Assembly (NCBI RefSeq): GCF_036127095.1 | Contig: NZ_CP108006.1 | Location: forward strand, 806,001-870,000 | Length of the DNA stretch: 64,000 nucleotides | DNA from: Streptomyces sp. NBC_00335 | Lineage (GTDB): Bacteria; Actinomycetota; Actinomycetes; Streptomycetales; Streptomycetaceae | Direction: 5' to 3' | In this document: positions 1,906 through 64,000 of the stretch, piece after piece | Layout: the number at the start of each line of letters is the position of its first letter | Position numbering within the stretch: position 1 is the stretch's first letter | Made by a program: the position numbers and the translations under genes | The notes under the pieces: generated by a model | The model's input: the letters and a program-made list of their open reading frames with translations, nothing else | Told to the model about the DNA's origin: nothing | Databases searched by the model: none

Positions 1906-1925
1906 GCAGCCGCTACGGTGACGGC

Positions 1926-2501: not shown

Positions 2502-3915
2502 CGTGCTTGGCCTGGGTGTAGTCCAGGAGGCCGGACAGGGAGAGGTCGCTGCCGTAGCCGGAGTGTTTGACTCCGCCGTGGGGCATCTCCGAGACCGTGG
2601 TGCCGTGGGTGTTCACCCAGACGATGCCGGTGTGCAGGGCGCGGGTGGCGCGCATCGCGCGGTCGTGGTCGGTGGTCCACACGCTCGCGGCCAGGCCGAA
2701 GCGCACCCCGTTGGCGAGGTGCAGGGCCTCGGCCTCGTCCGTGAAGGACTGGACGGTCACGACGGGTCCGAAGATCTCCTCCTGCACGATCTCGTCGTCC
2801 TGGCGGACGCCCGCGACCACGGTGGGCTCGTGGAAGAAGCCGGGGCGCGGGAGCCGGCCGCCGCCGGTGACGATTCCGGCGTGCGCTGGCAGACGGTCCA
2901 ACAGCCCTCGTACAGAGGCCAGTTGGGCGGCGTTGTTGAGGGGGCCGAAGTCGGCGCCGGCCCGGAGCGCGGCCGCCTCGGCGGCGAAGGCCGCGAGGAA
3001 CGTGTCGTGGATCCGGCGGTGGACCAGGAGCCGGGTGGGCGCGGTGCAGTCCTGGCCGGCGTTGTAGTAGGCGACCGCGGCGAGGGCGGCTGCGGTGGCC
3101 TGCACGTCCACGTCCTCGTGGACGACGACGGGGGCGTTGCCGCCGAGTTCCAGGTGGACCCGCTTGAGGCCGGCCGCGGCGGCCGCCGCGATCTCCTGTC
3201 CGGCCCGGACGCTGCCGGTGACGGCGATCAGGGCGACCGCCGGATGGGCGGTGAGGGCCCGGCCGGTGTCGCGGTCCCCGCAGACGACGTTGAGCACGCC
3301 CGGCGGCAGGTGGTCCGCGGCGATCCGGGCCAGGAGCACGGACGAGGAGGGGGTGGTGTCGGCGGGCTTGAGCACGGTGGTGTTTCCGGCGGCGATGGCC
3401 GGAGCGATCTTCCAAGCGGCCATCATCAGCGGGTAGTTCCAGGGGGTGATCTGGGCGCAGACCCCGACCGGTTCGCGGCGCAGCAGGGAGGTGCGGCCCT
3501 CGGTGTACTCGGCCGCGGCGGCGCCCGGGAGGTTCCGTGCGGCTCCGGCGAAGTAACGGAAGGCGTCGGCGATCCCGGGCAGCTCGTCGTCCCGGAACTG
3601 CCCGGCCGGCTTGCCGGTGTCCCCGGTCTCGGCGGCGGTGAAGGCCTCCGCGTGCGCCTCGATGGCGTCGGCGATGCCGAGGAGGGCGCGCTGGCGTACC
3701 GCCGGGGTGGTGGTGGACCAGTGTCCGTACGCGGCCGCCGCCGCGAAGCAGGCCGCGTCCGTGTCGGCGGGGCCCGAGCGCGGGGCGTGGCGGTGCACGC
3801 GGCCGGTGGCGGGGTCGGTGAGGGCCATGGTGGCGCCCGAGGCGGCGGGCCGGTCCACTCCCCCGATGTGGTTGTGCAGGGGCGCTGCGCCGGGGTCGTG
3901 CGGGGTGTCAGCCAC
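2491..3915 (-). CDS. Aldehyde dehydrogenase, gamma-aminobutyraldehyde type
   Basis: This NAD(P)-dependent aldehyde dehydrogenase has 474 residues. The ELGG catalytic-glutamate motif (VHLELGGNAPVVV) and the catalytic cysteine in NAGQDCTAPT are present; the GQDC form is typical of aminobutyraldehyde and betaine-aldehyde-like enzymes. PITPWNYP-like substrate loop (QITPWNYPLMMAAWK) is intact. The GTG start at 3915 overlaps the stop of the amine oxidase by 8 nt, so the two are probably translationally coupled. With an amine oxidase upstream and a polyamine importer before that, the likely job is oxidation of the aminoaldehyde released from putrescine or a similar amine. Much longer in-frame extensions are spurious. 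Confidence 0.88.
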   Translation of the reverse strand: MADTPHDPGAAPLHNHIGGVDRPAASGATMALTDPATGRVHRHAPRSGPADTDAACFAAAAAYGHWSTTTPAVRQRALLGIADAIEAHAEAFTAAETGDTGKPAGQFRDDELPGIADAFRYFAGAARNLPGAAAAEYTEGRTSLLRREPVGVCAQITPWNYPLMMAAWKIAPAIAAGNTTVLKPADTTPSSSVLLARIAADHLPPGVLNVVCGDRDTGRALTAHPAVALIAVTGSVRAGQEIAAAAAAGLKRVHLELGGNAPVVVHEDVDVQATAAALAAVAYYNAGQDCTAPTRLLVHRRIHDTFLAAFAAEAAALRAGADFGPLNNAAQLASVRGLLDRLPAHAGIVTGGGRLPRPGFFHEPTVVAGVRQDDEIVQEEIFGPVVTVQSFTDEAEALHLANGVRFGLAASVWTTDHDRAMRATRALHTGIVWVNTHGTTVSEMPHGGVKHSGYGSDLSLSGLLDYTQAKHVML

Positions 3916-5224
3916 GGCGCAGGGCCTCCTCGGCGGCGGCGCGTCCGGTGCGTACGGCGCCTTCCATGTAGCCGGCCACCCACTGGTCGGATCCGCAGAC
4001 GTAGAAGGGGGGTTCGTGGGTGCCGTGCCGGGGGCCGACGGCCATGACGTCGCCGGGGGTCCACTGGGTGACGTACCCCTGGGTCCACGGATCGGTGCCC
4101 CACATGCGGATGAACGTGGCGAGCGGCCGGTGCGCCTCGTCGCCGTAGAGGCGTGCGATGTCGGCCAGCAGTTCGGTGGTGCGCAGGGGTGCGGGCGTGC
4201 CGAGGAGGACGCCGTAGCGTTCGGGCGGTACGAGGGCCGAGAGGATGCCTTCGCTCTGCGGCCAGGTGCTGCCGAGGATCCCTTCGCTTTCGGAGAGGCC
4301 GCTGAGGCCCCGGTCGCGCCAGAAGGGTCTGGCGTACGCGGCGGTGAATTTGGCCGCGAGGGCGTGGCGCTGGCGGTGCAGGGAGGCGAGCCGCTCGTCG
4401 GAGACCCCGGTGACGGCGACCGAGCGGAGCGGGCCGGCCGGAAGGGCGCTGACCACGGCGTCGGCCGTGAGGGTCTCACCGCCGGCGAGGCGTACGGAGC
4501 TGCGGCCGGGCCGCCGTATCGCGACCTGCTCGACGGGTGAGCCCGTACGGATCCGGCCGCCGAGGGCCTCGGCCATGCGCAGGGCCACGGTCGCCGAGCC
4601 CTCGGCGACGCGCAGGCCCTCCCAGGCCTCGTACTCGTAGTGGCCGGTGCCGGGTACGGCGGCGTGTTTGCGCAGGGCCGCGAGCAGGGAGGTCCGCTCG
4701 CAGGAGCCGTCGGCGAGGGCGAGTTGGCCGATCTCCCAGAGGCGTACGACGGCCGGGGTGGCGCCCTGGGCGCGGAGCCAGTCGCCGACGGACAGCCGGT
4801 CGAGGTGCGCGGCCTCGGGGTGGGACCAGGGGTCGGCCGGGTCGACGGTGGCGGCGAGCGCCGTGAAGGCGGCGGTGACCTTGGTGCGGCAGGCGTCGTC
4901 GCCGGGGCCGAACCAGTGGGGCGGGTCGGTGGCGGAGACTCCTTCGGGGGTGGCGCGGACGAGGGCGCCGGGCTCGGCGACGTAGCTGGGGATCAGGGTG
5001 AGGCCCAGTTCCGCGGCGAGGCCGGTGTAGGCGGTGTGGGCCCGGCCCACCACCTCCCCGCCGAGCTGGACCAGCCGGCCGTCGGGGAGGGTGGTCTGCT
5101 CGACGCGTCCGCCGACGCGGTCGCGGGCCTCGACGACGAGGACGTCGGCCCCGCCCGCGGCCAGGTCCCGCGCGGCGGCGAGACCTGCCAGTCCGGCGCC
5201 GAGCACGATGACGTCGTGGTTCAT
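3908..5224 (-). CDS. Flavin amine oxidase (NAD(P)/FAD-dependent oxidoreductase)
   Basis: This 438-residue flavoprotein begins with a dinucleotide-binding GAGLAG at residues 9-14, followed by VEARDRVGGR, the hallmark of monoamine/polyamine oxidases. The C-terminal FAD-contact segment VAGYMEGAVRTGRAAAEE is present. Members oxidise primary or secondary amines to aldehydes with H2O2 release. It lies 101 nt downstream of the potA-like gene and overlaps the aldehyde dehydrogenase, giving an uptake, deamination and aldehyde-oxidation series. The substrate could be putrescine, another polyamine or a different amine. The ATG start at 5224 begins exactly at the Rossmann strand. Confidence 0.87.
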   Translation of the reverse strand: MNHDVIVLGAGLAGLAAARDLAAGGADVLVVEARDRVGGRVEQTTLPDGRLVQLGGEVVGRAHTAYTGLAAELGLTLIPSYVAEPGALVRATPEGVSATDPPHWFGPGDDACRTKVTAAFTALAATVDPADPWSHPEAAHLDRLSVGDWLRAQGATPAVVRLWEIGQLALADGSCERTSLLAALRKHAAVPGTGHYEYEAWEGLRVAEGSATVALRMAEALGGRIRTGSPVEQVAIRRPGRSSVRLAGGETLTADAVVSALPAGPLRSVAVTGVSDERLASLHRQRHALAAKFTAAYARPFWRDRGLSGLSESEGILGSTWPQSEGILSALVPPERYGVLLGTPAPLRTTELLADIARLYGDEAHRPLATFIRMWGTDPWTQGYVTQWTPGDVMAVGPRHGTHEPPFYVCGSDQWVAGYMEGAVRTGRAAAEEALRRG

Positions 5225-5325
5225 GGGTGTGCTTCCTTCGGTCGGTGACGGAGCCGAACGGCAGTGGGGGGCAGAGGGGCCGGGGGGTCCGGGGACCACC
5301 CGGCCCAGGGACCACCAAGGTCGAG

Positions 5326-6444
5326 TCAGTCGAGGACCAGGCAGTGTTCGGGGTTCCAGCCGATCTCGACCTGCTCGCCGCCGCTCCAGCGGTCCTCCAT
5401 GCGGGAGCGGACGGTGTTCTGCTCCAGTACGGACACCGTGACCCCGGGGGCCAGTTCGATGAGGTAGGTCGTGGTCGGGCCGGAGTAGACGGTCTCCCGG
5501 ACGACTCCGCTGACCTGGGCCATGCCCGGTTCGAAGCCGGAGAGCCAGATCTTCTCGGGGCGGATCGAGAGGCTGACCCGGCTGCCGTCGGGGACGCCGG
5601 ACCGGGGGCCGACGGGCAGGGCGGGGCCCTGGTCGAGGAGGACGCGGCCGGAGCGGTAGGTCCCCGGTACCAGGTTGGAGGTTCCCATGAAGGAGGCGAC
5701 GAAGCTGCTCGTGGGGCGCTCGTACACGTCCTCCGGCGTGCCGCACTGCTCGATGCGGCCCTCGTTCATGACCGCGAGGCGGTCCGACATGGTCAGGGCC
5801 TCGTCCTGGTCGTGGGTGACGAAGACGAAGGTGATGCCGACCTCCCGCTGGATCTGCTTGAGCTCGACCTGCATCCGGCGCCGCAGTTTCAGGTCGAGGG
5901 CGGCCAGCGGCTCGTCCAAGAGCAGGACTTGGGGCCGGTTCACCAGGGCGCGGGCCAGGGCGACGCGCTGGCGCTGGCCGCCGGAGAGCGTGGGCGGTTT
6001 GCGGCCGGCCAGTTCTCCGAGCTGTACGAGGTCCAGCATGTCGCCGACCCGTTGGCGGATCTCGGCGCGGGGCACGCCGCTGCGCTTGAGGCCGAAGGCC
6101 ACGTTGTCGGCGAGCGAGAGGTGGTCGAAGAGGGCGTAGCTCTGGAAGACGGTGTTGACGTTGCGCTTGTTGGGCGGCAGACCCGTGACGTCCTCGCCGT
6201 CGAGCAGGACGCTGCCCTCCGAGGGGTCGATGAAGCCGCCGATCATGCGCAGCAGGGTGGTCTTCCCGCAGCCGGAGGGGCCGAGGAGGGAGAAGAACTC
6301 GCCCGGGGCGATGTCGAGGGTGACGTCGTGGACGGCGTAGGTGTCCGTGGTGCGGTACTGCTTGGCGACCCGGTCGAGGCGGACGGCGGGGTGCGCGTCC
6401 ACGGCGTTCGGTTCCGCGGGCGGATCAGGGTTCGGGTGCTGCAT
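5326..6444 (-). CDS. Polyamine-type ABC transporter ATP-binding protein (PotA-like)
   Basis: This 372-residue ATPase has Walker A (GPSGCGKTT), signature (LSGGQRQRVALARAL), Walker B (VLLLDEPLAALD) and the H-loop (VTHDQDEA), then a C-terminal TOBE domain (about residues 280-370), the PotA arrangement. It powers the importer formed with the two permeases and the binding protein just upstream. I chose ATG 6444 because GGGAAG lies 8 nt before it. The GTG at 6453 overlaps the permease stop but sits directly on that ribosome site. Confidence 0.9.
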   Translation of the reverse strand: MQHPNPDPPAEPNAVDAHPAVRLDRVAKQYRTTDTYAVHDVTLDIAPGEFFSLLGPSGCGKTTLLRMIGGFIDPSEGSVLLDGEDVTGLPPNKRNVNTVFQSYALFDHLSLADNVAFGLKRSGVPRAEIRQRVGDMLDLVQLGELAGRKPPTLSGGQRQRVALARALVNRPQVLLLDEPLAALDLKLRRRMQVELKQIQREVGITFVFVTHDQDEALTMSDRLAVMNEGRIEQCGTPEDVYERPTSSFVASFMGTSNLVPGTYRSGRVLLDQGPALPVGPRSGVPDGSRVSLSIRPEKIWLSGFEPGMAQVSGVVRETVYSGPTTTYLIELAPGVTVSVLEQNTVRSRMEDRWSGGEQVEIGWNPEHCLVLD

Positions 6445-6449
6445 GGGTG

Positions 6450-7400
6450 TCACTTCCCCGGAAGCAGATCGAGGCCGCCCCGGCGGCCGAAGAGGCGCGG
6501 GATGGCGAGGGCGAACGCGATGAGGGCGATGGAGCCGACGAGCATGAGGGTGCCGACGGCGTTGATGGTGGGCTGGACGCCGAACCTGATCGCCGAGTAG
6601 ATGCGGACGGAGAGCGGTTGGGGGTCGACGCCGGTGGTGAAGTAGGCGAGGACGAAGTCGTCGAAGACCAGGGCGAAGATCAGTACCCCGGAGGCGAGGA
6701 TGCCGGGGAGCAGCGCGGGCAGGGTCACCAGGCGCAGGGCCTGCCCGCGGGTGGCTCCGAGGTCCATCGCCGCCTCCTCGACCTCAGGGTTGAGGGCGGC
6801 GATGCGGGAGCGCAGGATGACCGTGACGTAGGAGATGGAGAAGGTGATCTCGGCCAGCATCACGGTGGTGGTGGACAGGGTGATGCCGAGGCCCTTGAAG
6901 AGCATCATCGCGGCGACGCCGGTGACGATCTCCGGGGTGATCAGCGGTACGAGCATGACCAGGCCGGCGAAGGACCCGAGGCGGCTCCGGCCCCGGACCA
7001 GTCCGAGGGCGAGGGCCACTCCGAGGACGAGCGAGACGGCCATCGCGACCAGGGACACCCGCAGGCTCATGCCGAGGGAGCCGATGAGCGCGTCGTCGCG
7101 GAGGAACGCGCGGTACCAGCGCAGGCTCACGCCGTCGAAGACGGTGAGGGACTTCTGCGCGTTGAAGGAGAACAGGACGACGACGCCGACGGGGAGGTAG
7201 AGCAGCGCGAAGAAGACCGCGGTGACGGCGATGGCGAACCGGGGCCGGCGGTCGGCTCCGCGGCGCCGCCTCCCGGGGCGGCGCGGCCGGGTGGCGGGCC
7301 GCTTCTCCGCCTCGCCGGCGGTCCGCGGGGCGGTGGCGCGTACGGTCGGCGCACCGCTCGGCGCGGAAGGTGCGGTACGGGGAACGGGGCGCGGGTTCAT
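6450..7400 (-). CDS. Polyamine-type ABC transporter permease (PotC-like)
   Basis: This 316-residue inner-membrane permease has six predicted hydrophobic helices and the EAA-type cytoplasmic loop EEAAMDLGATRGQALRLVTLP, which couples to the ATPase. The charged, arginine-rich stretch of about 45 residues before the first helix is longer than usual. The ATG at 7400 overlaps the upstream permease stop by 4 nt. It pairs with the PotB-like subunit to form the pore. Confidence 0.9.
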   Translation of the reverse strand: MNPRPVPRTAPSAPSGAPTVRATAPRTAGEAEKRPATRPRRPGRRRRGADRRPRFAIAVTAVFFALLYLPVGVVVLFSFNAQKSLTVFDGVSLRWYRAFLRDDALIGSLGMSLRVSLVAMAVSLVLGVALALGLVRGRSRLGSFAGLVMLVPLITPEIVTGVAAMMLFKGLGITLSTTTVMLAEITFSISYVTVILRSRIAALNPEVEEAAMDLGATRGQALRLVTLPALLPGILASGVLIFALVFDDFVLAYFTTGVDPQPLSVRIYSAIRFGVQPTINAVGTLMLVGSIALIAFALAIPRLFGRRGGLDLLPGK

Positions 7401-8320
7401 CGGACCGCCTCCGCCTCGTCCTTGCGGGTGCGCTTCAGGTAGCCGAGCATCCCGAGCAGCAGGACCGCCATGAGCAGGATGGTCAGGGCCGAGCCGAGCG
7501 GCCAGTTCTGGCCCTGGAAGAACTTGTCCTGGATCAGGTTGCCGATCATGATCTGGTCGGGGCCTCCCATGAGCTGTGCGCTGACGAAGTCGCCCATGGC
7601 GGGCAGGAAGACGAGGACGCAGCCGGCGGCCGCGCCCTGGCGGGTGGCGGGCACGGTGACGAAGAGGAAGGTCCTCAAGGGGCCGCCGTAGAGGTCGCGT
7701 CCGGCTTCGATGAGCGAGGTGTCCATGCGCTCCATGGCCGCGTACAGCGGAATGATCATGAAGACGACGAATCCGTAGACGAGTCCGGCGATGACCCCCG
7801 GGGCGGTCTGGAGGATCTTGCTGTCGCCGTCGGCGAGGCCGATCGCGCGCAGGGCCTTCAGCGCCGGCCCGTCGTCGGAGAGCACGACGGACCAGCCGTA
7901 CATCCGTACCAGGTAGTTGGCGAAGAACGGGACGACGATCGCGGCGATCAGCAGGTTCTTGAAGCGGCCGCCGCGCAGGGCGATGGCGTAGGCGACGGGG
8001 TAGCCCACGGCCAGGCAGATGAGGCAGGTGATCAGCGCGTAGCCCAGCGAGCGCAGCAGGACGGTGCGGTAGGCCGGATCGGCGAGCGCGGCGAAGTTCT
8101 CGAAGTTGAGCCCGAAGCGCGGATTGCCGAGCGGGTCGGTGGTGCCGAAGGCGAGGGTGGCCACCAGGAGCAGGGAGGCGAGGAGGAAGCCGGTCATCCA
8201 CAGGGTGCCGGGGAGCATGAACCAGGTCCACAGCCTCCCCTCCGACGCGGCCCGGCCCCTGCGGGGCGGACGGTCCGGGCCGGATCGGTCCTGCGGATCC
8301 CGGGGATCAGGTCGTGCCAT
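7397..8320 (-). CDS. Polyamine-type ABC transporter permease (PotB-like)
   Basis: This 307-residue membrane protein has the PotB layout, including PYMVRMYGW-like segment (FFANYLVRMYGWSVVL) and an EAA loop (SLIEAGRDLYGGPLRTFLFVTVP is the coupling region). It starts 1 nt after the stop of the binding-protein gene and overlaps the PotC-like gene by 4 nt, so the importer genes form a tightly coupled D-B-C-A operon. Confidence 0.9.
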   Translation of the reverse strand: MARPDPRDPQDRSGPDRPPRRGRAASEGRLWTWFMLPGTLWMTGFLLASLLLVATLAFGTTDPLGNPRFGLNFENFAALADPAYRTVLLRSLGYALITCLICLAVGYPVAYAIALRGGRFKNLLIAAIVVPFFANYLVRMYGWSVVLSDDGPALKALRAIGLADGDSKILQTAPGVIAGLVYGFVVFMIIPLYAAMERMDTSLIEAGRDLYGGPLRTFLFVTVPATRQGAAAGCVLVFLPAMGDFVSAQLMGGPDQIMIGNLIQDKFFQGQNWPLGSALTILLMAVLLLGMLGYLKRTRKDEAEAVR

Positions 8321-8321
8321 G

Positions 8322-9452
8322 TCAGCCGGCCTTCACATCGGTCCAGGCGGCGTCGCGGAGCTGCTCGCCCTTGGCCGTGCCGTTGCGGAAGTAGAGGTCG
8401 TTCTTGAGGTCGGCCGCCGTCACCTGGCACTGGGGGAAGGGCTCCACGAGCGCGGCGTACGTGTCCTCGCTGCCGCGGACCGGCATGGGGTAGCCGATGT
8501 ACTCGATGTTCCTCTTCACGTTTTCCGGGCGGAGCATGTAGTCGATGAAGAGCATCGCGGTCCCGGGGTGCTGCGCGTTGACGGGTATCGCGTAACAGTC
8601 GGAGTTGAGGGGAGCGCCCTCGCGGGCGACTTCGAAGCCGAAGACGGACGGGTCCTCCGCCTGGGCGAGCATGGCGGCCATGTCCCCGCTCCACGCCTGG
8701 GTCATATCGGCGTTGCCGTTGAGCAGGTTGTTGTAACTGTCGCTGGAGAAGCCGCGCAGGCGGGGGCGGAGCGAGCGCAGGGTGTCGGTGACGCGCGAGA
8801 GATCGCCCTGGTCGTCGGTGGTGAGGCCGAGGCCGAGCTTGAGCGCGCCCAGGCCGAGCACCTCGTCGCGGTCGTCGAGTACGAAGACCTTGCCCTTGGC
8901 CTGCTCGTTCCACAGGTCGTCCCAGGAACCGGTCAGTTCGCCGAGCCGGTCGCGGCGCCAGCCGATGCCGGTCTTGTACATGGTGAAGGGCACGGTGTGC
9001 CGGGAGCGGGGGTCGTACCAGGGGTCGGCGAAGTAGTCGTAGCCGCCGAACACGGCCTCGGCGTTCTTCAGCCGGGTGTGGTCGATCGTGCGCAGCCTGC
9101 CCCCGGCGGCGAGGCGCTGGGACCACTTCGCCGTGGGGAAGATGATGTCGTACTGGTTCCCGGAGTTGAGCTTGGCGGCCATGCCTTCCATCGAGTCGAA
9201 GTTCGACTGGACGACCTTGACGCCGTACTCCTTCTCGAAGCCTTGGAAGACGGCCGGGTCGACGAAGTCGGCCCAGTTGAAGTAGACGAGGTCGCCGTCG
9301 ACCTTGACGTCGATCGGCGCCTCCTCGGCCGCTGTGCCGGCCGGATCGTCACCGGACGCGAATCCGCAGCCGGCTGCCGCGAGGCCGAGGGCGGCGGCGG
9401 TGCCGGCGCGGAGGAGGGAGCGTCTGGACAGGGGGTGTGCCTCGGGGGACAT
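8322..9452 (-). CDS. Polyamine-type ABC substrate-binding lipoprotein (PotD-like)
   Basis: This 376-residue extracellular binding protein carries a twin-arginine-like signal (SRRSLLRAG) ending in a lipobox (LAAAGC, Cys29). It should therefore be a Tat-exported lipoprotein. The mature part follows the PotD pattern: VYFNWADFVDP near the start, YDIIFPT and the W-S-G-D-M substrate region. PotD-like proteins bind spermidine or putrescine, but relatives bind choline-type amines and other cations, so the ligand is open. It is second in the operon after the Rieske gene. Confidence 0.9.
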   Translation of the reverse strand: MSPEAHPLSRRSLLRAGTAAALGLAAAGCGFASGDDPAGTAAEEAPIDVKVDGDLVYFNWADFVDPAVFQGFEKEYGVKVVQSNFDSMEGMAAKLNSGNQYDIIFPTAKWSQRLAAGGRLRTIDHTRLKNAEAVFGGYDYFADPWYDPRSRHTVPFTMYKTGIGWRRDRLGELTGSWDDLWNEQAKGKVFVLDDRDEVLGLGALKLGLGLTTDDQGDLSRVTDTLRSLRPRLRGFSSDSYNNLLNGNADMTQAWSGDMAAMLAQAEDPSVFGFEVAREGAPLNSDCYAIPVNAQHPGTAMLFIDYMLRPENVKRNIEYIGYPMPVRGSEDTYAALVEPFPQCQVTAADLKNDLYFRNGTAKGEQLRDAAWTDVKAG

Positions 9453-9570
9453 GCGGGGTCCTCTCCGTAGGGGGCCGTGGGGGGACGGCGGTTGGGACGA
9501 CGTGCGGGGGGCGGCGTAGCGGGCGTGACGTGGAGGGCGCAGGGCGAACGAAGGGTGTCTCAGGGGTGGT

Positions 9571-10821
9571 TCAGCGCTCGGCGCCGGCCGCGTCGGCCGC
9601 GTCGGGATCGGCGCCGGCGTCCAGGTCCGCCCGGATGCGGCCGGCGAACCAGGCGACCGCCGACTCGCGGCGGGACAGCGGGCCGGGTTCGAAGCCGGGG
9701 GTGGAGAGCCCCTTCTGTACGCGGGCGACCAGCTCGACGTCCTCGTCGTTGGTGATCCAGCCGATGTGGATGTTCAGGCGCCGGGCGAGGCGGGTGCGCA
9801 GGCCCGTACCGCGCCGGGTGTAGAACGCGCCGGGGACGGCGACCCGGTCCACGGCCGTCGGGATCGCGGTCCAGGCCAGGACGTGGTCGGGGTAGAAGTC
9901 GATGAGGGTGTTCGGGTAGATGACCGCGTACCGCCAGATCCGCCGGTCGGCTTCGGTGAGGCCGGGCATGGGGGCGGCGATGCGCTGGTAGAGGCGTTCG
10001 GCCCAGTTCGAGGACGGCTTGTCCCGCAGGGGCGAGGCGAAGAGTGCGTAGGACTCCTCGATCTCGCAGGTGTAGGCCTGGTAGTCGAGCAACCGCATCA
10101 GGCCGGGGTGGGCCACCGGCACGTGGTAGCCCTCCAGGTAGTTGTCGACCGTCACCTTCCAGTTGGCCTCCTGGACCTCGGCTCCGGCCAGGTCGTGGAT
10201 CCGGGCGCGGCCGACCGGCACCAGGCCGGCCCCGGCGTAGTGACCGACGGCCTCGGCGAGCCCGGCGCACTGCTGCGCCAGGGGCACGGCATCGAGGTCG
10301 AGGTTGACGAAGACGAAGCCGAGGAAGGATTCGACGCGGGCCGGGAGCAGGCCGAGCGCGGGCTTGTCGAGGCAGGGGATCTGCCGCGCCTCCGGGGCTC
10401 CGACCAGGCTTCCGTCGAGGCGGTAGGTCCAGCCGTGGTAGGGGCAGCGGATCGCTTTCCCCTCCGGTTCGGGGGCCGTGACCAGGCGCGTTCCGCGGTG
10501 GCGGCACACGTTGAGGTGGGCGGCGAGGGCGCCGTCCTCGGTGCGGACCACGAGTACCTCGCGGCCCGCGACGGTGGCGGCGAGCCGGGCGCCCGGGTTC
10601 GGCAGGTCGGACTCGTGGCAGACGAGCTGCCAGGCCTTGGCGAAGACCTGGCGGACCTCCTCGGCGGCCGTGTCGGGATCGGTGTAGTAGCGGGCCGACA
10701 GGGCGGGCCCGGGGACATCGGGGACCGGCGGGGCGGCGGGGACCGGCTGATCGGTGGGGACCGGCTGGTCGGTGGGGACCGGCTGATCGGTGGGGGGCTT
10801 CTCGGGGGCTCTGGAGTGCAT
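9571..10821 (-). CDS. Rieske non-heme iron oxygenase alpha subunit, choline-monooxygenase/GbcA-like
   Basis: This 416-residue protein has the Rieske [2Fe-2S] ligands CRH (Cys106, His108) and CPYHGW (Cys126, His129). Its mononuclear-iron signature DNYLEGYHVPVAHPGL (His233, His238) is of the type seen in choline monooxygenase, glycine-betaine and carnitine Rieske enzymes. Such enzymes hydroxylate or split quaternary amines. Start ATG 10821 is preceded by GGAGGAG. The first 30 residues contain a threefold PTDQPV repeat that looks disordered. It heads the operon with the PotDBCA importer, 118 nt before potD. No classical GbcB-type reductase is adjacent; the NuoF-like/ferredoxin pair across the promoter is the best candidate electron source. 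Confidence 0.88.
   Translation of the reverse strand: MHSRAPEKPPTDQPVPTDQPVPTDQPVPAAPPVPDVPGPALSARYYTDPDTAAEEVRQVFAKAWQLVCHESDLPNPGARLAATVAGREVLVVRTEDGALAAHLNVCRHRGTRLVTAPEPEGKAIRCPYHGWTYRLDGSLVGAPEARQIPCLDKPALGLLPARVESFLGFVFVNLDLDAVPLAQQCAGLAEAVGHYAGAGLVPVGRARIHDLAGAEVQEANWKVTVDNYLEGYHVPVAHPGLMRLLDYQAYTCEIEESYALFASPLRDKPSSNWAERLYQRIAAPMPGLTEADRRIWRYAVIYPNTLIDFYPDHVLAWTAIPTAVDRVAVPGAFYTRRGTGLRTRLARRLNIHIGWITNDEDVELVARVQKGLSTPGFEPGPLSRRESAVAWFAGRIRADLDAGADPDAADAAGAER
10741..10794. repeat. Three 18-bp tandem repeats inside the Rieske gene
   Basis: The unit GACCGGCTGATCGGTGGG occurs three times in a row, with one changed base in the middle copy. It encodes the threefold PTDQPV repeat at the N terminus of the Rieske protein. 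The unit length keeps the reading frame. Confidence 0.85.
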
Positions 10822-10922
10822 CGGGTGACTCCTCCGTACCGGCGGTGCGGCGGTCGGTCTCGGCGGTGGACATCGAGACGACACGGCGGTGGGCAGCGGG
10901 CCGGGGCGGACGCCGAGGCCTT

Positions 10923-10940
10923 GCTGACCGATTGGACAGC
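10923..10940. promoter_or_regulatory. TetR-type operator O2
   Basis: GCTGACCGATTGGACAGC matches 16 of 18 positions of operator O1 at 10980-10997. It lies just downstream of a leftward promoter candidate, so it would cover the transcription start of the Rieske-pot operon. Its centre is 57 bp from that of O1. Confidence 0.65.
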
Positions 10941-10941
10941 C

Positions 10942-10970
10942 AGATTGCTGGCTGATTTCCGCCGGGTCAA
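10942..10970 (-). promoter_or_regulatory. Leftward promoter candidate for the Rieske-pot operon
   Basis: On the minus strand TTGACC (10970-10965) is followed after 17 nt by CAATCT (10947-10942). The box abuts operator O2. This is a by-eye match to a housekeeping-type promoter. Confidence 0.45.
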
Positions 10971-10973
10971 GAC

Positions 10974-11003
10974 TTGTACGCTGACCGATCGGTCAGCTAG
11001 CGT
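10974..11003 (+). promoter_or_regulatory. Rightward promoter candidate for the NuoF/acyl-CoA operon
   Basis: TTGTAC (10974-10979) and TAGCGT (10998-11003) are separated by 18 nt. The spacer is exactly the perfect operator palindrome O1, the classic arrangement for TetR-type repression. A long leader of about 220 nt then precedes the first gene; nothing recognisable is seen in it. Confidence 0.55.
10980..10997. promoter_or_regulatory. TetR-type operator O1 (perfect palindrome)
   Basis: GCTGACCGATCGGTCAGC is an 18-bp perfect palindrome of the form typical for TetR-family operators. It fills the -35/-10 spacer of the rightward promoter. The TetR gene that ends this operon (18962-19594) is the natural candidate for binding it, although that is inferred. 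Confidence 0.75.
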
Positions 11004-11229
11004 AATTCTCGTCGCTGCACCGGAGTTCATCCACTTCTGGGCCCTTTGTCTGGCCGGACGCAGCCCCGCCGCCCTGGCACCCGCCCGGGCCGGCACCCCC
11101 TCCTCCATCCCTTCTTGCCGCACGCCGTCGGCGTCCCCCGCGGTGAGCCCGGGGCATCTCCTCCCCGCCCCGGGCTCCCCGTCACCGGCCCGGCGGCCCA
11201 CGGCACCCCCATCCCTCCCGGAGGCACGC

Positions 11230-11703
11230 ATGAGCGGTCGTCGCCGTCTGGACTGGCTCGGGCTCACCCCCGAACCGGAGCGGGAACTGCCCGCTGCGGT
11301 CGCCGCCCTCCGCGCCTCCTCGCGCCATCCCCCTACGAAGCCCACGGGGCCCAGGGAGCCCCCCGGCCCCGCCCGTCCCCTGAATCCCGAACCGCCGGCA
11401 GAGCTGGTGGCCTCCGAGCGGCGCCGCCTGGAGCGCCTGATCCTGCGGGGCAGCCGGCGCGGCTGGCTGCGCTACCTGGCCGAGGTCACCACCCTGGTGA
11501 CCGCCGTTGCCGACGGTGCCGACGGCCCCGGGCAGGGCGACCGCCCGGCCGCCCTCCTCGCCGGCGAGGTGGTCCTCGACCACCACCGGATGCTGATCGG
11601 CCTCCCGGGAACGGGCTACGCCACCGCCGCCGGGGACCGCGCCGCACTTGAGCGCGCCGTACGGACCCTGCGCACCAACTCCCCGACAGGAAGCAGCCGA
11701 TGA
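11230..11703 (+). CDS. Hypothetical protein, first gene of the NuoF/acyl-CoA operon
   Basis: I do not recognise this 157-residue protein. It begins SGRRRLDWLGL, has a Pro-rich stretch around residues 35-55 (a likely linker) and an alpha-helical C-terminal half with few hydrophobic segments and no cysteines that could hold a cluster. ATG 11230 follows a good GGAGG. The stop overlaps the NuoF-like start by 4 nt (ATGA), so it is probably coupled to it and may be an accessory or partner of that flavoprotein. Confidence 0.7.
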   Translation: MSGRRRLDWLGLTPEPERELPAAVAALRASSRHPPTKPTGPREPPGPARPLNPEPPAELVASERRRLERLILRGSRRGWLRYLAEVTTLVTAVADGADGPGQGDRPAALLAGEVVLDHHRMLIGLPGTGYATAAGDRAALERAVRTLRTNSPTGSSR

Positions 11704-13016
11704 CCACGATCCGATTCCCGACGGGGCGGCCGACGGGCTCCGTGCTCGGGGCCGCACCGGACACGGCGGAGGACGCGGAGGCGTACCTCGCCACCGGCGG
11801 CTACGCCGACGCCACCGGCCCGGACGAGCTGCTGCGCCACCTCGCCGCATCCGGTCTGCGCGGGCGCGGCGGGGCCGGCTTCCCGGCCGCCGTCAAGCTC
11901 CGTGCCGTCCGCGAGCACGGCGGGGTCCCGGTGGTGGTGGCGAACGGCGAGGAGGGCGAGCCCGGTTCGGTCAAGGACCGCTGGCTGCTGCGGGCCAGAC
12001 CCCACCTGGTCCTCGACGGCCTCGCCCGCGCCGCAGCCATCACCGGGGCCACCCGCGGCTACGTCTACGTCTCGGACCCGGTGGCCGCAGCCCGCGTCCG
12101 CCGGGCCCTCGCCGAACGGGAGCCGTGGCTGCCCGTGGAGGTCGTCGAGACCGCCCACACCTACGTCGCCGGGGAGGAGAGCGCGGTCGTCCGCCGGATC
12201 GACGGCGGGCCCGCCCTGCCGACCGCCAAACCGCCCCGCCCCTTCGAGCGCGGTGTCGGCGGCGCGCCGACCCTGGTGTCCAACGTCGAGACGCTCGCCC
12301 GCATCGCCCTCACCGCCACCCGCCCCGGCCTGCGGCAGGCGATCGCCCGCTCCACCCTGGTGACCCTGTCCGGCGGGAGCGCGGTCCCCCTCCTGGCCGA
12401 AGTCGCCTACGGAGCCCCCCTGCGCACGCTGGCCGCCTCGCTCGGCGTCCCGGACCCGGCCGGGGCCCTGATGGGCGGACTGTTCGGCGGACTCGTCCAC
12501 GCCCGCGCCCTGGACCTCCCCCTCGAACCGGGCGCGCTCGCCGCCGCGGGCACCGGGCTGGGCTGCGGAGCGATCCGCTTCCTCGCCGCCGGAGCCTGCC
12601 CCGTGAGCACCGCCGCCGACGCCGTCGGCCACCTCGCGGCGGAGAGCGCACGGCAGTGCGGGGTCTGCGTCTCGGGCACCGCGGCGGTCCGCGACGCCGT
12701 GTACGCCCTCGCCGCGGGCACCGCCGCGCCCGACATCCCCGCCCGGTTGGAGCGGTGGTCGCTGGGGCTGCGCGGGCGCGGCGCGTGCGGCCTGCTCGAC
12801 GCTGCCGCCGGCCTCGCCGGCAGCCTGCTGACCGCCTTCCCCGGACCCGTCCGGTCCCACCTGCGGGGGTCCTGTCCGAGCTGCGCCGCCGCCCTGCCCG
12901 GGCGTGGCCACGGGGGCCGCCTCGCCGTGGCCGTACCGGAGGTCGCCGGGGCGGCCTTGGACGCCGCGGACGCCGTGACCGTACCCCGCTCGCCCGTGCT
13001 GAAAGGAACACCGTGA
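11700..13016 (+). CDS. NuoF-like NADH:acceptor flavoprotein
   Basis: This 438-residue protein resembles the NADH/FMN-binding subunit of complex I. It has GLRGRGGAGFPAA (residues 52-64, NADH/FMN loop), ANGEEGEPGS (81-90), YVAGEESAV, an SLBB-like middle region and a C-terminal iron-sulfur domain. In NuoF the [4Fe-4S] ligands follow a CxxCxxC plus distant C pattern. Here the first position is Ala317, with Cys320, Cys323 and Cys363 kept, so the cluster may be altered; extra Cys392 and Cys395 follow. It is not in a nuo operon. With the next-door ferredoxin it could pass electrons from NADH to the Rieske oxygenase or take electrons from the acyl-CoA dehydrogenases. Confidence 0.82.
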   Translation: MTTIRFPTGRPTGSVLGAAPDTAEDAEAYLATGGYADATGPDELLRHLAASGLRGRGGAGFPAAVKLRAVREHGGVPVVVANGEEGEPGSVKDRWLLRARPHLVLDGLARAAAITGATRGYVYVSDPVAAARVRRALAEREPWLPVEVVETAHTYVAGEESAVVRRIDGGPALPTAKPPRPFERGVGGAPTLVSNVETLARIALTATRPGLRQAIARSTLVTLSGGSAVPLLAEVAYGAPLRTLAASLGVPDPAGALMGGLFGGLVHARALDLPLEPGALAAAGTGLGCGAIRFLAAGACPVSTAADAVGHLAAESARQCGVCVSGTAAVRDAVYALAAGTAAPDIPARLERWSLGLRGRGACGLLDAAAGLAGSLLTAFPGPVRSHLRGSCPSCAAALPGRGHGGRLAVAVPEVAGAALDAADAVTVPRSPVLKGTP

Positions 13017-13204
13017 AACTCCTGCTGGACTCCACCCGCTGCCAGGGCTACGGACTGTGCCAGGAACACGCACCCCACCTGGTCGAACTCGACGAGTGGG
13101 GCTACGCGAAGGTCATCGCCGTCGCCGTCCCGCCCGGTGGCGAGGAAGCGGCGCGCGCCTGCGCCGAGAGCTGCCCCAATTCCGCGCTCCGAGTGGAGAA
13201 GTGA
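13013..13204 (+). CDS. Small ferredoxin ([3Fe-4S]-type)
   Basis: This 63-residue ferredoxin starts at GTG 13013, overlapping the NuoF-like stop by 4 nt. Cysteines lie at Cys10 and Cys16 (CxxxxxC) and at Cys50 and Cys54, the latter followed by Pro (ESCP), the usual pattern of short actinobacterial ferredoxins that often serve P450s and oxygenases. The protein is acidic. No P450 gene is in the window, so its partner is more likely the NuoF-like protein and the Rieske enzyme or the acyl-CoA dehydrogenases. Confidence 0.88.
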   Translation: MKLLLDSTRCQGYGLCQEHAPHLVELDEWGYAKVIAVAVPPGGEEAARACAESCPNSALRVEK

Positions 13205-59563: not shown

Positions 59564-60925
59564 ATGAGCCAGCCCATCGACGCCGTCACCGCAGGGCACA
59601 CCCCCGAGAGCGAGCCCGCCGGATCCGCGACGCCCGCCTGGTCCTTCGAGACCAAGCAGCTCCACGCCGGCTCCGCTCCCGATCCGGCCACCGGCGCCCG
59701 CGCGGTCCCGATCTACCAGACCACCTCGTTCGTCTTCCGCGACACCCAGCACGCCTCCGACCTCTTCTCCCTGGCCGAACCCGGGAACATCTACACCCGC
59801 ATCCACAACCCCACCCAGGACGCCCTGGAGCAGCGCGTCGCCGCCCTCGAAGGCGGCGTCGCCGCCGTCGCCCTCGCCTCCGGGCAGGCCGCGGAGACCC
59901 TCGCGATCCTGAACCTGGCGTCGGCCGGCGACCACATCGTCTCCAGCGCCTCCCTCTACGGCGGTACGTACAACCTGTTCCGGCACACCCTGCCGAAGTT
60001 CGGCATCGAGGTGTCGTTCGTCGAGGACCCCGACGACCTCGACGCCTGGCGGGCCGCCGTACGGCCGCAGACCAAGGCCCTGTTCGCGGAGACCCTCGGC
60101 AACCCGCGCGGCAACGTCCTCGACGTCCGGGCCGTGGCCGACGTCGCGCACGCGGCGGGCCTGCCGCTCATCGTCGACAACACCGTGCCCACGCCGTACC
60201 TGCTGCGCCCCATCGAGCACGGAGCCGACGTCGTCGTCCACTCGGCCACCAAGTTCCTCGGCGGACACGGCACCACCCTCGGCGGGGTGGTCGTCGACGC
60301 GGGCACCTTCGACTTCGGCGCGCACCCCGAGCGCTTTCCCGGGTTCACCGAACCCGACCCCAGCTACCACGGCCTGCGCTACTGGTCCGCCCTGGGACCG
60401 GGCGCGTTCGCGGTCAAGCTGCGCGTGCAGCTGCTGCGCGATCTCGGTCCCGCCATCGCGCCGCACTCCGCGTTCCTGCTCCTGCAGGGCGTGGAGACGC
60501 TGAGCCTGCGCCTGGAGCGGCACTCGTCGAACGCCCAGGAGTTGGCCCAGTGGCTCGAACAGCGCGACGAGGTCTCGGCGGTGCACTACCCCGGCCTGCC
60601 GTCGAACCGCTGGTACGAGGCGGCGCGCCGCTACCTGCCGCGCGGCGCCGGGGCCGTGCTCTCGTTCGAGTTGCGGGGTGGCGTCGAGGCGGGCCGCCGT
60701 TTCGTGGACGGACTGGAGCTGTTCAGCCACCTCGCGAACATCGGCGACGTACGCAGCCTCGTCATCCACCCCGCCTCCACCACCCACAGCCAGCTCGACG
60801 AGGCGCAGCTGGCCGCCACCGGCACCACCCCGGGGCTGGTGCGCCTGTCCGTCGGCATCGAGAACCTCGCCGACCTGAAGGACGATCTGGAGGCCGGCTT
60901 CCGCGCCTCGAAGGAAGCGTCCTGA
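59564..60925 (+). CDS. metY: O-acetylhomoserine sulfhydrylase
   Basis: This 453-residue PLP enzyme of the Cys/Met metabolism family begins with a 25-residue extension, then [31 protein letters not shown]. The PLP lysine is in [16 protein letters not shown], and YTRIHNPT and ASGQAAE are conserved. It makes homocysteine from O-acetylhomoserine and sulfide. ATG 59564 follows GAGGAG. It overlaps the metX start by 4 nt. Confidence 0.92.
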
Positions 60926-62112
60926 ACCCCGCCACAGCGGCCCCGGACACCGCGGCCCTCCCTCCGGCCACCGGCGCGTGGCGGGAGGGGGACCCGCCGG
61001 GCCGCCGCAAGTGGCACCGGCGCACGCAACCGCTGGCGCTGGAGGCGGGCGGTGTGCTGCCGGAGGTGCGGCTGGCGTTCGAGACCTGGGGGCGGCTCGC
61101 ACCCGACCGTTCGAACGCGGTCCTCGTCCTGCACGCGCTGACCGGCGACAGCCACGTCGCGGGCGCCGCCGGGCCCGGTCACCCGACCTCCGGCTGGTGG
61201 GACGCGCTGGTCGGCCCGGGCCGGGCGCTCGACACCGACCGGTGGTTCGTGGTGGCGCCGAACGTCCTGGGCGGCTGCCAGGGAAGCACGGGGCCCGCCT
61301 CCCCGGGCCCCGGCGGGCGCCCCTGGGGCGGTTCCTTCCCGCGCCTCACCCAACGCGACCAGGTCCGTGCCGAGGCCGGGCTCGCGGACGCACTCGGCGT
61401 CGACCGCTGGGCCCTGGTGATCGGGGGATCCATGGGCGGGATGCGGGCGTTGGAGTGGGCCGTCGGTGAACCCCGGCGCGTGGCGGCGCTGTTGCTGCTC
61501 GCCTGCCCCGCGGCGGCGAGCGCGGACCAGATCGCGTGGGCCACCACCCAGATCCACGCCATCCGCGCCGACCCCCATTGGCGGGGCGGCGATTACCACG
61601 ATGCCGGGCCCGGGCGGGGGCCGCACGCGGGGCTGGGCATCGCCCGCCGCATCGCGCACATCACCTACCGGTCGGCCGGGGAACTGCAGACCCGCTTCGG
61701 CCACGAGGCCCAGGAGGGAGAGCAGCCCCGGCTCGGCGGCCGCTACCGCGTCGAGTCCTATCTCGACCACCAGGCCCGCAAACTCCCCCGGCGCTTCGAC
61801 GCGGCCAGCTACGTCGCTCTGGCCGAGGCCATGAACACCCACGACATCGGGCGGGGCCGGGGCGGCCCGCGCGCGGCCCTCGGCCGGGTACGGGCCCGCA
61901 CGGTGGTGGCCGGCGTGGACTCCGACCGCCTCTACCCCCTGGCACAGCAGGAGGAACTGGCGCACGGGATCCCGACCGCGGACGGAGTCCGGGTCATCAG
62001 CTCCCCGTACGGGCACGACGGGTTCCTGCTGGAGACGGACCAGGTCGGCGCACTGGTACGGGAGCTCCTCGACGGCGCCCCGGATCCGCGCGCCGGTGTC
62101 ACGAACTACTGA
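60922..62112 (+). CDS. metX: Homoserine O-acetyltransferase, with CTG start
   Basis: This 396-residue alpha/beta-hydrolase-fold acyltransferase has the nucleophile serine in VIGGSMGGMRALEWA, an aspartate in GVDSDRLYPL and the histidine in PYGHDGFLLET. It supplies O-acetylhomoserine to MetY. No ATG or GTG lies near the expected N terminus. CTG 60922 overlaps the metY stop (CTGA) and has AAGGA 6-7 nt before it, so I take it as the start. The last codon and stop (TAC TGA) come partly from an inserted transposon end; without it the gene would end one codon earlier at TAA. Confidence 0.88.
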   Translation: MNPATAAPDTAALPPATGAWREGDPPGRRKWHRRTQPLALEAGGVLPEVRLAFETWGRLAPDRSNAVLVLHALTGDSHVAGAAGPGHPTSGWWDALVGPGRALDTDRWFVVAPNVLGGCQGSTGPASPGPGGRPWGGSFPRLTQRDQVRAEAGLADALGVDRWALVIGGSMGGMRALEWAVGEPRRVAALLLLACPAAASADQIAWATTQIHAIRADPHWRGGDYHDAGPGRGPHAGLGIARRIAHITYRSAGELQTRFGHEAQEGEQPRLGGRYRVESYLDHQARKLPRRFDAASYVALAEAMNTHDIGRGRGGPRAALGRVRARTVVAGVDSDRLYPLAQQEELAHGIPTADGVRVISSPYGHDGFLLETDQVGALVRELLDGAPDPRAGVTNY

Positions 62113-62166
62113 GGTTTCCGGGTTGTCGTCGGGTGGTGACGGGTCATGATCCCTGCGGTATGACGG
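62109..62166 (+). repeat. Left terminal inverted repeat
   Basis: This 58-bp end begins CTGAGGTTTCC right after a TA and overlaps the metX stop codon. Its inverse complement matches the right repeat at 48 of 58 positions. Confidence 0.85.
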
Positions 62167-62300
62167 TGTGCGGTTCGTGGTGGGTGAGAAGACCGTGGTG
62201 ATCGCGAAGGATCTGCGGGTGAGTGTCCGATCGGTGGAACCGGCGCCGTGCCTGGCGCGAGGGCGGAATGGAGGCCCTTCGCTCGAGTGGGCCGGCGAAC
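62167..62300 (+). pseudogene. Remnant of IS630-type transposase helix-turn-helix domain
   Basis: One frame reads GEKTVVIAKDLRVSVRSVE, then after a shift near 62238 another reads RRRAWREGGMEALRSSGPAN. Joined, these match the winged helix-turn-helix of streptomycete IS630-type transposases (AKDLRVSVRSVERWRRAWREGG-like). The rest of the transposase, including its DDE domain, is absent. It sits directly inside the left inverted repeat, where the transposase N terminus would be. Confidence 0.75.
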
Positions 62301-62509
62301 TGCCCGACCGCTGTCGGTGGCGACGGCAGAAATCCGTGGACGGACCCGCGGAAGATCACGTACCGTGTGGCTCCACGCCCTGAGATGAACGGAAGGAGGC
62401 GAGTGCCGTGTGGTTCACACCTTTCCAGCGCTCCCTCTTCCAGCATCCCGGCGTGGTTTCTCAGTTCTGACCGGGGGCGCTCCAAGCAGCCTGTATCCCG
62501 GAGGAATCC

Positions 62510-63409
62510 ATGACCGATCTGGTCATCCGTACGCTCTCCGCGAGCGACGCACATCTCTTTGACGCACTTCCCGACCCCCTGGGCGCCCGTGAGGGTCATC
62601 GGCGTACTCGGTTCCGCCCCCACTGGAAGCGCGTCGCCCTGCGCGATGGCGAAGTCGTTGCACGCGGCGCTTGGTGGGGCGGCCCCGACGACTCGGAGCC
62701 CGTCAACATCAACTGGTTCGACGTGGCCGAGGGGGAGGAGGAGGCCGGAGCCGAACTCCTGCGCTCCGCTCCCTGGCAGGTCGAACTCGAGATCAACCTG
62801 CCCAGCGGCTGGCGGGACGACCCCGAACTGCGGGCCGGCGCCGAGACGCGCTTCGCCGCCGCACGAGCCGCTGGGTACGAACTCCTGGTGGAACGCTTCC
62901 TGTACCGCTGGACCCCGGAGCAAGGTCTGCCCGAGCGGCCCGGACGCCTGCGCTTCAGCGCCGAACCCGACGACGCCGTGTTCTTCGACGCGTTTCGCCG
63001 CATCCATTCCGTCACCCTGGACGCCCACGCGCTCAGGGCCATCGAGGAGGGCGGTCTCGACCAGGCCGCCCAGGAGGAACTCGACTTCCTCCACTGGTGC
63101 CCCTCCCCACGGGAGTGGTGGCAGATCGCGCACACGCCCGAGGGCGACCTGGCCGGCATCCACATACCGGCCCACAACCCCTCCGGCCCGACCATCGGCT
63201 TCATCGGAGTCCTGCCGGAGCAGCGCGGTCACGGCTACGCCTACGACCTCCTCGCGGAGTGCACCCACCTCCTCGTCGAGCACGGCGCGGAGGTCGTCAC
63301 CGGATCGACCGACCAGGGCAACTTCCCCATGGCCGCCAACTTCACCAAGGCCGGCTTCCCCGTCATCAAGGAACGCATCAACTTCCACGCAGCGGGCCGG
63401 GAGGCCTAG
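62510..63409 (+). CDS. GNAT-family N-acetyltransferase (transposon cargo)
   Basis: This 299-residue protein has two GNAT-like halves. The C-terminal one holds the acetyl-CoA motif IGVLPEQRGHGYAYDLLAE, followed by GSTDQGNFPMAANFTKAGF, a typical motif-B region. The N-terminal half is degenerate. ATG 62510 follows GGAGGAAT. It is the only intact gene between the 58-bp inverted repeats. Acetyl acceptors are unknown; such enzymes modify small molecules, antibiotics or peptides. A hairpin follows the stop. Confidence 0.85.
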   Translation: MTDLVIRTLSASDAHLFDALPDPLGAREGHRRTRFRPHWKRVALRDGEVVARGAWWGGPDDSEPVNINWFDVAEGEEEAGAELLRSAPWQVELEINLPSGWRDDPELRAGAETRFAAARAAGYELLVERFLYRWTPEQGLPERPGRLRFSAEPDDAVFFDAFRRIHSVTLDAHALRAIEEGGLDQAAQEELDFLHWCPSPREWWQIAHTPEGDLAGIHIPAHNPSGPTIGFIGVLPEQRGHGYAYDLLAECTHLLVEHGAEVVTGSTDQGNFPMAANFTKAGFPVIKERINFHAAGREA

Positions 63410-63430
63410 CGAGGAGTAGCACCCGGTGCG

Positions 63431-63463
63431 AGCGGTCCGGTCCGAGGGCAGGTCCGGACCGCT
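63431..63463. terminator. 10-bp hairpin after the GNAT gene
   Basis: AGCGGTCCGG (63431-63440) pairs with CCGGACCGCT (63454-63463) around a 13-nt loop. It lies 21 nt past the GNAT stop, between the gene and the right inverted repeat. Confidence 0.65.
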
Positions 63464-63465
63464 TG

Positions 63466-63523
63466 CCGTCATACCGAAGGGACCATGAACCGTCACTGCC
63501 CGACGCCGAACAGAAAACCTCAG
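63466..63523 (-). repeat. Right terminal inverted repeat
   Basis: This 58-bp end finishes with AAACCTCAG immediately before TA. It mirrors the left repeat without gaps. Confidence 0.85.
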
Positions 63524-63564
63524 TAACGGGCCGGTCCGCACCTCGCACCCCCCGGAGACCGCGC

Positions 63565-64000
63565 TCAACTCCGGCAGACGCGTTCCACCAGGTCCTGCCA
63601 GGCCTGGGCCATGCGCTCGACGTGATCGGTGGGCTCTTCCTCCGTGGAAGCCGTCAGGTAGAGCAGGAAGGGGCCTTCGAGGGCGGCGGTGAGCTGTACG
63701 GCCAGCATGTCGAGGTCCGCGCCGTGGAGTTCCGCCTGCCCGAGCAGCATGCGGATGTGGACCCGGGAGATCGTGCCCTCGCCGGCCGGTACCGGCCGGG
63801 ATCCGTCCAGGGCGGCGCGGGCGACGGCGTAGTGCCTCAGCTGGAAGTCGATCCGGGTCCGGCCGTAAGCGACCAGCCGCTCCACGGGGCCCGCTCCCGG
63901 TCCCAGCGGCGGCGGACCGGACAGCACCTGTTCCTGGAGGGCGCGTTCGTCGTCGTCCAGCAAGGCCTGGAAGATCCCCGCCCGGCTGCCGAACCTCCGG
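63565..64000 (-). CDS. TetR/AcrR-family regulator, 5' end beyond the window
   Basis: The visible C-terminal 144 residues begin with a segment reading RRFGSRAGIFQALLDDDERALQEQ, the end of a TetR helix-turn-helix (compare YYRFGSKAGLYRALL). The frame stays open to the window edge, so the start lies outside and an internal methionine is not the true start. The rest is a helical ligand domain. It converges on the transposon. Confidence 0.82.
   Translation of the reverse strand, partial: RRFGSRAGIFQALLDDDERALQEQVLSGPPPLGPGAGPVERLVAYGRTRIDFQLRHYAVARAALDGSRPVPAGEGTISRVHIRMLLGQAELHGADLDMLAVQLTAALEGPFLLYLTASTEEEPTDHVERMAQAWQDLVERVCRS

Follow-up and report, generated by a model that had tools for sequence, protein, structure and literature searches.

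A GNAT gene between inverted repeats behind metX

The window analysed here, a 64,000-nucleotide stretch of the Streptomyces sp. NBC_00335 genome, carries at the end of a metX-like gene a short element that is bounded by inverted repeats and holds a gene for a GNAT-family N-acetyltransferase. The features that define the locus are the following.

60550..62112, + strand: open reading frame holding metX (with its true start internal to the frame; the final codon and the stop, TAC TGA, are supplied by the element)
62107..62108, no strand: TA, left boundary, read from the sequence
62109-63523: the element, 1,415 bp between the two outer TA
62109..62166, + strand: left terminal repeat, an IS630 left end by comparison with six complete IS copies
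62109..62326, + strand: IS630 left remnant, by alignment to a 1,148-bp IS copy of genome G054
62327..63468, + strand: putatively captured GNAT cassette, from promoter box to hairpin, by the alignment limits in named loci
62510..63409, + strand: intact GNAT-family N-acetyltransferase gene, 299 aa, by Pfam and a predicted tandem-GNAT fold
63428..63466, + strand: terminator-like hairpin 3' of the GNAT gene, by inverted-repeat search and sequence reading
63466..63523, - strand: right terminal repeat, by the same six-copy comparison an IS630 left end in inverted orientation, from a second and diverged copy
63524..63525, no strand: TA, right boundary, read from the sequence

The first reading frame encodes an alpha/beta hydrolase (PF00561, E=4.3e-17 in Pfam), which we take to be MetX. 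The single intact GNAT gene that a preliminary description of this DNA had placed within the repeats is there, with a match of its product to PF00583 (E=7.9e-6). The cargo protein is predicted to have a fold like that of mycothiol synthase (MshD) and other tandem-GNAT enzymes; its score on the NCBIfam model mycothiol_MshD is 12.5 bits, with a cut-off of 163.1. Elsewhere in the same genome, a second GNAT-like stretch (G000:C1:115693-116458) is 67% identical. Beyond the element, a gene convergent to the GNAT gene occupies 63565-64000; it is presumably TetR-like, from the look of its relative in G012.

An inverted-repeat search of the window pairs 62107-62177 with 63455-63525 over 71 nt at 80% identity. 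Within this pair lies an ungapped core, 62109-62166 against 63466-63523, that is identical at 48 of 58 positions, as first described; the match is far beyond chance, the best score in 20,000 shuffles of one repeat arm being 32/58. The TA dinucleotides noted outside each repeat are present as well. However, because every IS630 end brings its own TA, their occurrence at both sides is weaker evidence of insertion as a unit than it looks. In the 9.0-Mb genome of the strain, a 154-bp left-end query matches itself and the right end alone (E<=0.1; 40 of 44 candidates scored).

Both outer ends resemble IS630 left ends

Comparison of a 2.1-kb query from the window with 100 genomes led to three identical IS630 copies in G054, which run from TACTGAGGTTTTC to GAAAACCTCAGTA and measure 1,148 bp counting both TAs. 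Complete relatives share the layout TA|CTGAGG...CCTCAG|TA with two overlapping transposase reading frames. In the G054 copies these frames encode 179 and 207 aa and, against a cut-off of 100 bits on NCBIfam transpos_IS630, score 96.2 (slightly below; E=2.3e-27) and 100.5 (slightly above; E=1.1e-28); the second contains the DDE_3 domain. The IS630 type proposed for the repeats is thereby supported, and full-length relatives, for which a search with the 58-bp repeats had been suggested, are present in other genomes, matching at the left end only.

This last point shapes our view of the element. Compared with six complete IS copies, the left repeat of the element is identical to their left ends at 51-54 of 58 positions and to their right ends at 33-36; for the right repeat the corresponding ranges are 45-50 and 29-34, and within the same six copies the left and right ends agree at 30-35 positions. 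These ranges describe complete, in-register copies. Two copies are left out: L086 is one base out of register and agrees with the two element ends at 29 and 26 of 58 left-end positions, and L050 is a deleted 646-bp copy (left end 47 and 43 of 58, right end 31 and 28). When inverted, the right end of the element aligns to IS positions 1-60 (85%), whereas its alignment to the IS right end is limited to 26 bp (81%). In every locus printed with transposase matches, moreover, the match to the element ends lies on the orfA side. Since both ends match IS left ends over right ends, the element has two left ends and no IS right end, and the inner parts of both copies are lost. The two ends differ at 10 of 58 bases and are therefore not products of one recent duplication; by this comparison they come from two diverged copies.

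The left remnant corresponds to positions 1-62 (92%), 136-284 (85%) and 413-428 (16/16) of the G054 IS, with two internal deletions and a further 2-nt deletion in the transposase frame, which is broken; its orfA matches comprise 25 and 28 aa (L083). The decayed IS630-type helix-turn-helix fragment reported earlier is real in this sense: reading frames across the region give no Pfam match, and the fragment is recognizable solely by aligning complete relatives. From IS position 429 to the right-end repeat there is no significant match on the left side of the element, so that the DDE part is absent, and on its right side only the IS left end is matched, with no transposase part.

The cargo as a self-contained cassette

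We compared the cargo with 80 named GNAT loci (L143-L222), all of which carry it without these ends; 45 of them represent 35 surroundings. The idea that the acetyltransferase is a passenger with other neighbours elsewhere is thus well founded. Alignments of the cassette start at 62315-62337 in 68 of the 80 loci and extend to 63462-63468 in 26 of them. No separate match to the IS-derived parts was found in any of the 80 loci (E<=1e-5), and none shares flanks with the window. Among 392 sampled genomes (two candidates each), no listed match spans both sides of a junction, the largest overhang being 14 bases, and neither the strain's own genome nor the matches listed for these 392 contain a second copy of the whole unit. 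By alignment, the cargo is a separate segment whose promoter box and hairpin lie only a few bases from the joins to the IS-derived parts.

In three genomes chosen for high GNAT identity, the GNAT genes are 91.5, 90.9 and 86.7% identical to that of the window, against 77, 78 and 76% for metX, a difference that speaks for transfer of the cargo. Across nine genomes listing both genes, the two identities lie within 3 points of each other in eight (for example 76/75 in G003 and 73/73 in G052), the pattern that vertical descent would give. The GNAT gene seems to wander between Streptomyces genomes as a self-contained unit of promoter box, leader, putative attenuator, gene and hairpin.

A leader peptide and an attenuator-like RNA

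The interval between the IS630 remnant and the GNAT start codon contains these features, of which the attenuator segments are putative.

62329..62366, + strand: candidate WblC/WhiB7-type promoter with GAAATC box, TGGACG and TACCGT, by sequence reading
62391..62406, + strand: attenuator segment 1, the Shine-Dalgarno region of the leader, by fold and pairing counts
62408..62470, + strand: leader reading frame VWFTPFQRSLFQHPGVVSQF*, with a comparable leader in 79/80 loci
62428..62435, + strand: attenuator segment 2, GCGCTCCC, exact in 76/80 loci
62471..62480, + strand: attenuator segment 3, CCGGGGGCGC, CCGGG[AG]GCGC in 78/80 loci
62496..62505, + strand: attenuator segment 4, TCCCGGAGGA, containing the GNAT Shine-Dalgarno, C[CT][CT]GGAGGA in 77/80 loci

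In the window the GAAATC box stands 2 nt before TGGACG, against the 3 nt that separate GAAAWY from the -35 in the WblC consensus, as given in the part of the source available (PMC7157823). Exact GAAAWY occurs in 40 of the 80 loci, and AAAWY with TGGAC in 44. The leader frame, found in the window and in all but one of the loci, has 15-20 codons, begins 7-8 nt 3' of GGAGG and encodes peptides of the pattern MxFTPFQRSL.., and 78 of the 79 have RS near codons 8-9. In some leaders (for example L147 and L157) the frame shifts after codon 10, and the first ten codons alone are kept. Because codons 7-10 overlap segment 2, RNA pairing may account for part of this conservation.

Pairing was counted in an alignment of 25 of the 81 sequences, on a four-segment layout derived from the window's own fold (z=-2.1). 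For segments 2 and 3, all 200 of 200 cells are paired, with at most 63% in slid controls; segments 3 and 4, at the GNAT ribosome-binding site, are paired in all cells (helix 6), and segments 1 and 2 in 90%. RNAalifold favours the 2:3 pairing. Covariation values among the 25 aligned sequences equal those of shuffles, because the segments hardly vary, and Rfam gives no match at 60000-64000.

In ermC-type attenuators a leader peptide is followed by four complementary segments, the fourth of which contains the Shine-Dalgarno of the gene. The window has a similar layout, with a leader, four complementary segments and the Shine-Dalgarno in segment 4, although its putative switch precedes a GNAT gene and the pairing shows no covariation. 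By analogy, ribosome stalling near the start of the leader would leave segment 2 free to pair with segment 3, which would release the GNAT ribosome-binding site. The ermC-like layout and the WblC-type box together make induction of the gene by translation-targeting drugs plausible, and the GNAT gene seems to come with an on-off switch of its own. The cargo in this way shows hallmarks of inducible resistance genes, namely a leader peptide, a switchable-looking ribosome-binding site and horizontal transfer, and the inducer and acetylation substrate of the enzyme are directly testable questions. On a broader and distinctly tentative view, the GNAT gene could be a widespread drug-inducible Streptomyces resistance determinant, a promoter-leader-gene-hairpin unit that travels in many vehicles, here a two-left-ended IS630 movable only in trans.

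The metX junction

The 3' codons of metX read GTC ACG AAC TAC TGA. With the element and one TA removed, the joined flanks read ACG AAC TAA, so that metX would end with AAC TAA and be followed by CGGGCCGGTCC; this codon reading agrees with the earlier proposal that the present stop, TAC TGA, is borrowed from the element. In G307, the MetX protein (88% identical in the part that aligns) ends at exactly the codon where that of the window would without the element, its final residues being TD* and those of the window protein TN*. The position of the G307 stop supports AAC TAA as a putative original stop.

A search with the joined flanks in 392 genomes of the genus and 394 of the family (two candidates scored each) gave no listed match that contains both flanks. 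Among the matches listed for the genus, the one extending furthest past the join does so by 13 bases, in G307, and weak matches in the family genomes (E 1e-4 or worse) extend about 21 bases across it. The comparison of metX 3' ends that had been proposed therefore yielded an agreeing stop in G307 and no two-sided empty site. G307 itself was considered as an empty site and withdrawn, since its bases past the stop score like shuffles (p 0.19-0.22). The sequence 3' of metX was read at 25 separate places (29 rows, 36 loci given) and differs between species; two other places, L134 and L140, reach p 0.017, about as expected from 25 trials. None of the further-downstream genes of the window genome that were tested, a set without metX and the TetR-like gene, was found behind metX in those places. 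Around relatives of the TetR-like gene in G012, G323 and G707, the gene that precedes metX in the window has no match within 14-16 kb of sequence.

The preliminary description had held that conservation of the unit at this locus in all relatives, or repeats without another genomic copy together with the lack of an empty site, would speak against an inserted element. The outcome is mixed. The unit is not conserved at the locus; the repeats lack a further copy in the strain's own genome, but their relatives are abundant elsewhere.

Origin and mobility

The element looks like the residue of two IS630 copies in inverted orientation, with their left ends facing outward and a foreign GNAT segment between them. 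We consider it probable, with real room for doubt, that a GNAT cassette between two outward IS630 left ends was moved in trans into the metX stop codon. A self-contained cassette would have come to sit between two related, oppositely oriented IS630 copies with their left ends outward, and a transposase supplied in trans could then treat the two left ends as a single element. Cut-and-paste at TA, of the IS630/Tc1 type, would insert this element at the TA within the metX stop codon, and MetX would gain one tyrosine with the frame kept. For ISY100, an IS630/Tc1 element, the accessible part of one report states that 30 bp of each end suffices for movement and that the affinity of binding is similar at the two ends (PMC2170065).

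The strain's own genome contains one DDE_3 match, at locus L223, which matches neither the element ends (E<=1e-3) nor, at E<=1e-5, the IS transposase. As a partner transposase with these ends was not found in the strain's own genome, the element is at present probably immobile. The most fitting label is that of a putative mobile insertion cassette, derived from IS630 and probably unable to move, for which we infer transposition as a unit.

Three other readings have to be weighed. The unit might never have been mobile, the GNAT gene having already stood 3' of metX when two IS630 copies landed separately in opposite orientation and decayed. Transposase-less left-end fragments do exist (L045, L046 and L052), a TA comes with any IS630 end, and a second copy of the whole unit was not found in the searched genomes. 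Against this, both outer ends are retained and both inner ends gone, the junctions adjoin the cargo within a few bases, the joined flanks restore a MetX stop at the G307 position, and none of the 80 named GNAT loci has the flanks of the window; we regard this account as unlikely. The outward look of inverted repeats, TA and a transposase fragment would also fit one IS630 whose transposase was replaced by the GNAT gene, a classical mobile insertion cassette and in essence the single IS630 minus transposase of the preliminary description. We rejected this very improbable reading, because comparison with complete IS copies shows that the right terminus of the element is a left end, so that the ends derive from two diverged copies. 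Finally, that the cassette entered an older two-left-ended miniature IS630 by its own means is scarcely credible: it is sharply bounded in many surroundings, but no short two-left-ended miniature occurs among 42 left-end matches in 20 genomes picked for IS copies, many of them drafts, and in 8 of the 80 loci the only listed inverted repeats bracketing the cassette have 15 nt (L156) and 14 nt (L165), a chance size.

Relation to known mobile elements

A transposase-less element with a passenger had been taken for an undescribed cargo unit. Such elements are known as mobile insertion cassettes, in which, according to the accessible parts of two reports, inverted repeats bracket a passenger without a transposase, usually with a target duplication (PMC3913671, PMC5444012); for MIC231A1, the first also reports movement in trans by a cognate transposase (PMC3913671). 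Like MIC231/MIC231D of Bacillus cereus, mic-qnrD and MICE-qnrS2, as far as those sources describe them, the element has a passenger gene within inverted repeats, no transposase gene (an orfA remnant only) and TA on both sides as putative short target repeats. It differs in that its ends are of IS630 type, both of them left ends of two diverged copies, in that a transposase remnant is kept, and in that no second copy or partner transposase was found. With IS630/Tc1 insertion sequences such as the 1,148-bp G054 copies and ISY100 it shares terminal CTGAGGTTT.., TA flanks and the orfA remnant, but it lacks the catalytic domain and a right end. The element is not a new kind of cargo element; it differs from known cassettes by its two-left-ended IS630 build.

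In the literature on mobile insertion cassettes and Streptomyces, no Streptomyces mobile insertion cassette appears by title. The matches listed on IS630 passengers, composite transposons, MITEs, insertion cassettes and GNAT leader peptides or uORFs, a scope mostly outside subscription journals, contain nothing on this element or its leader. The structure suggests a route to cargo elements, in which an inverted IS630 pair loses all but its outward left ends.

Facing left-end pairs elsewhere

As in composite transposons, two related IS in opposite orientation surround unrelated DNA in the window, though as remnants and with no intact IS to supply transposase. G213 has a half-decayed counterpart made of the same type of IS, the only facing pair less than 15 kb apart among the 42 left-end matches (contig 38, L246). 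Here a 202-bp left-end remnant (1477-1678) faces an inverted full-length copy (11939-13096, 1,158 bp), with left ends outward, 11.6 kb apart, and a TA at each outer end; the two are 98% identical across the shared 202 bp. The pair looks like a half-way stage in the decay of an inverted IS630 pair, and the element at metX like a point further along this path, where both copies have been reduced. For ten left-end fragments a strict motif search gave no partner ends, a motif that missed the L050 right end and the G213 partner outside L080.

Five reading frames were scanned in or at the G213 segment, and four have domains, three of them an ABC transporter, a MacB/FtsX permease and another transposase. 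The fourth belongs to a different GNAT reading frame (Acetyltransf_9, L246:1448-2356) that overlaps the left-end remnant at the edge of 1477-13096. On contig 43 of G199 (L088), two IS630 left ends lie on the same strand, 424 bp apart, as a nested or tandem truncated copy.
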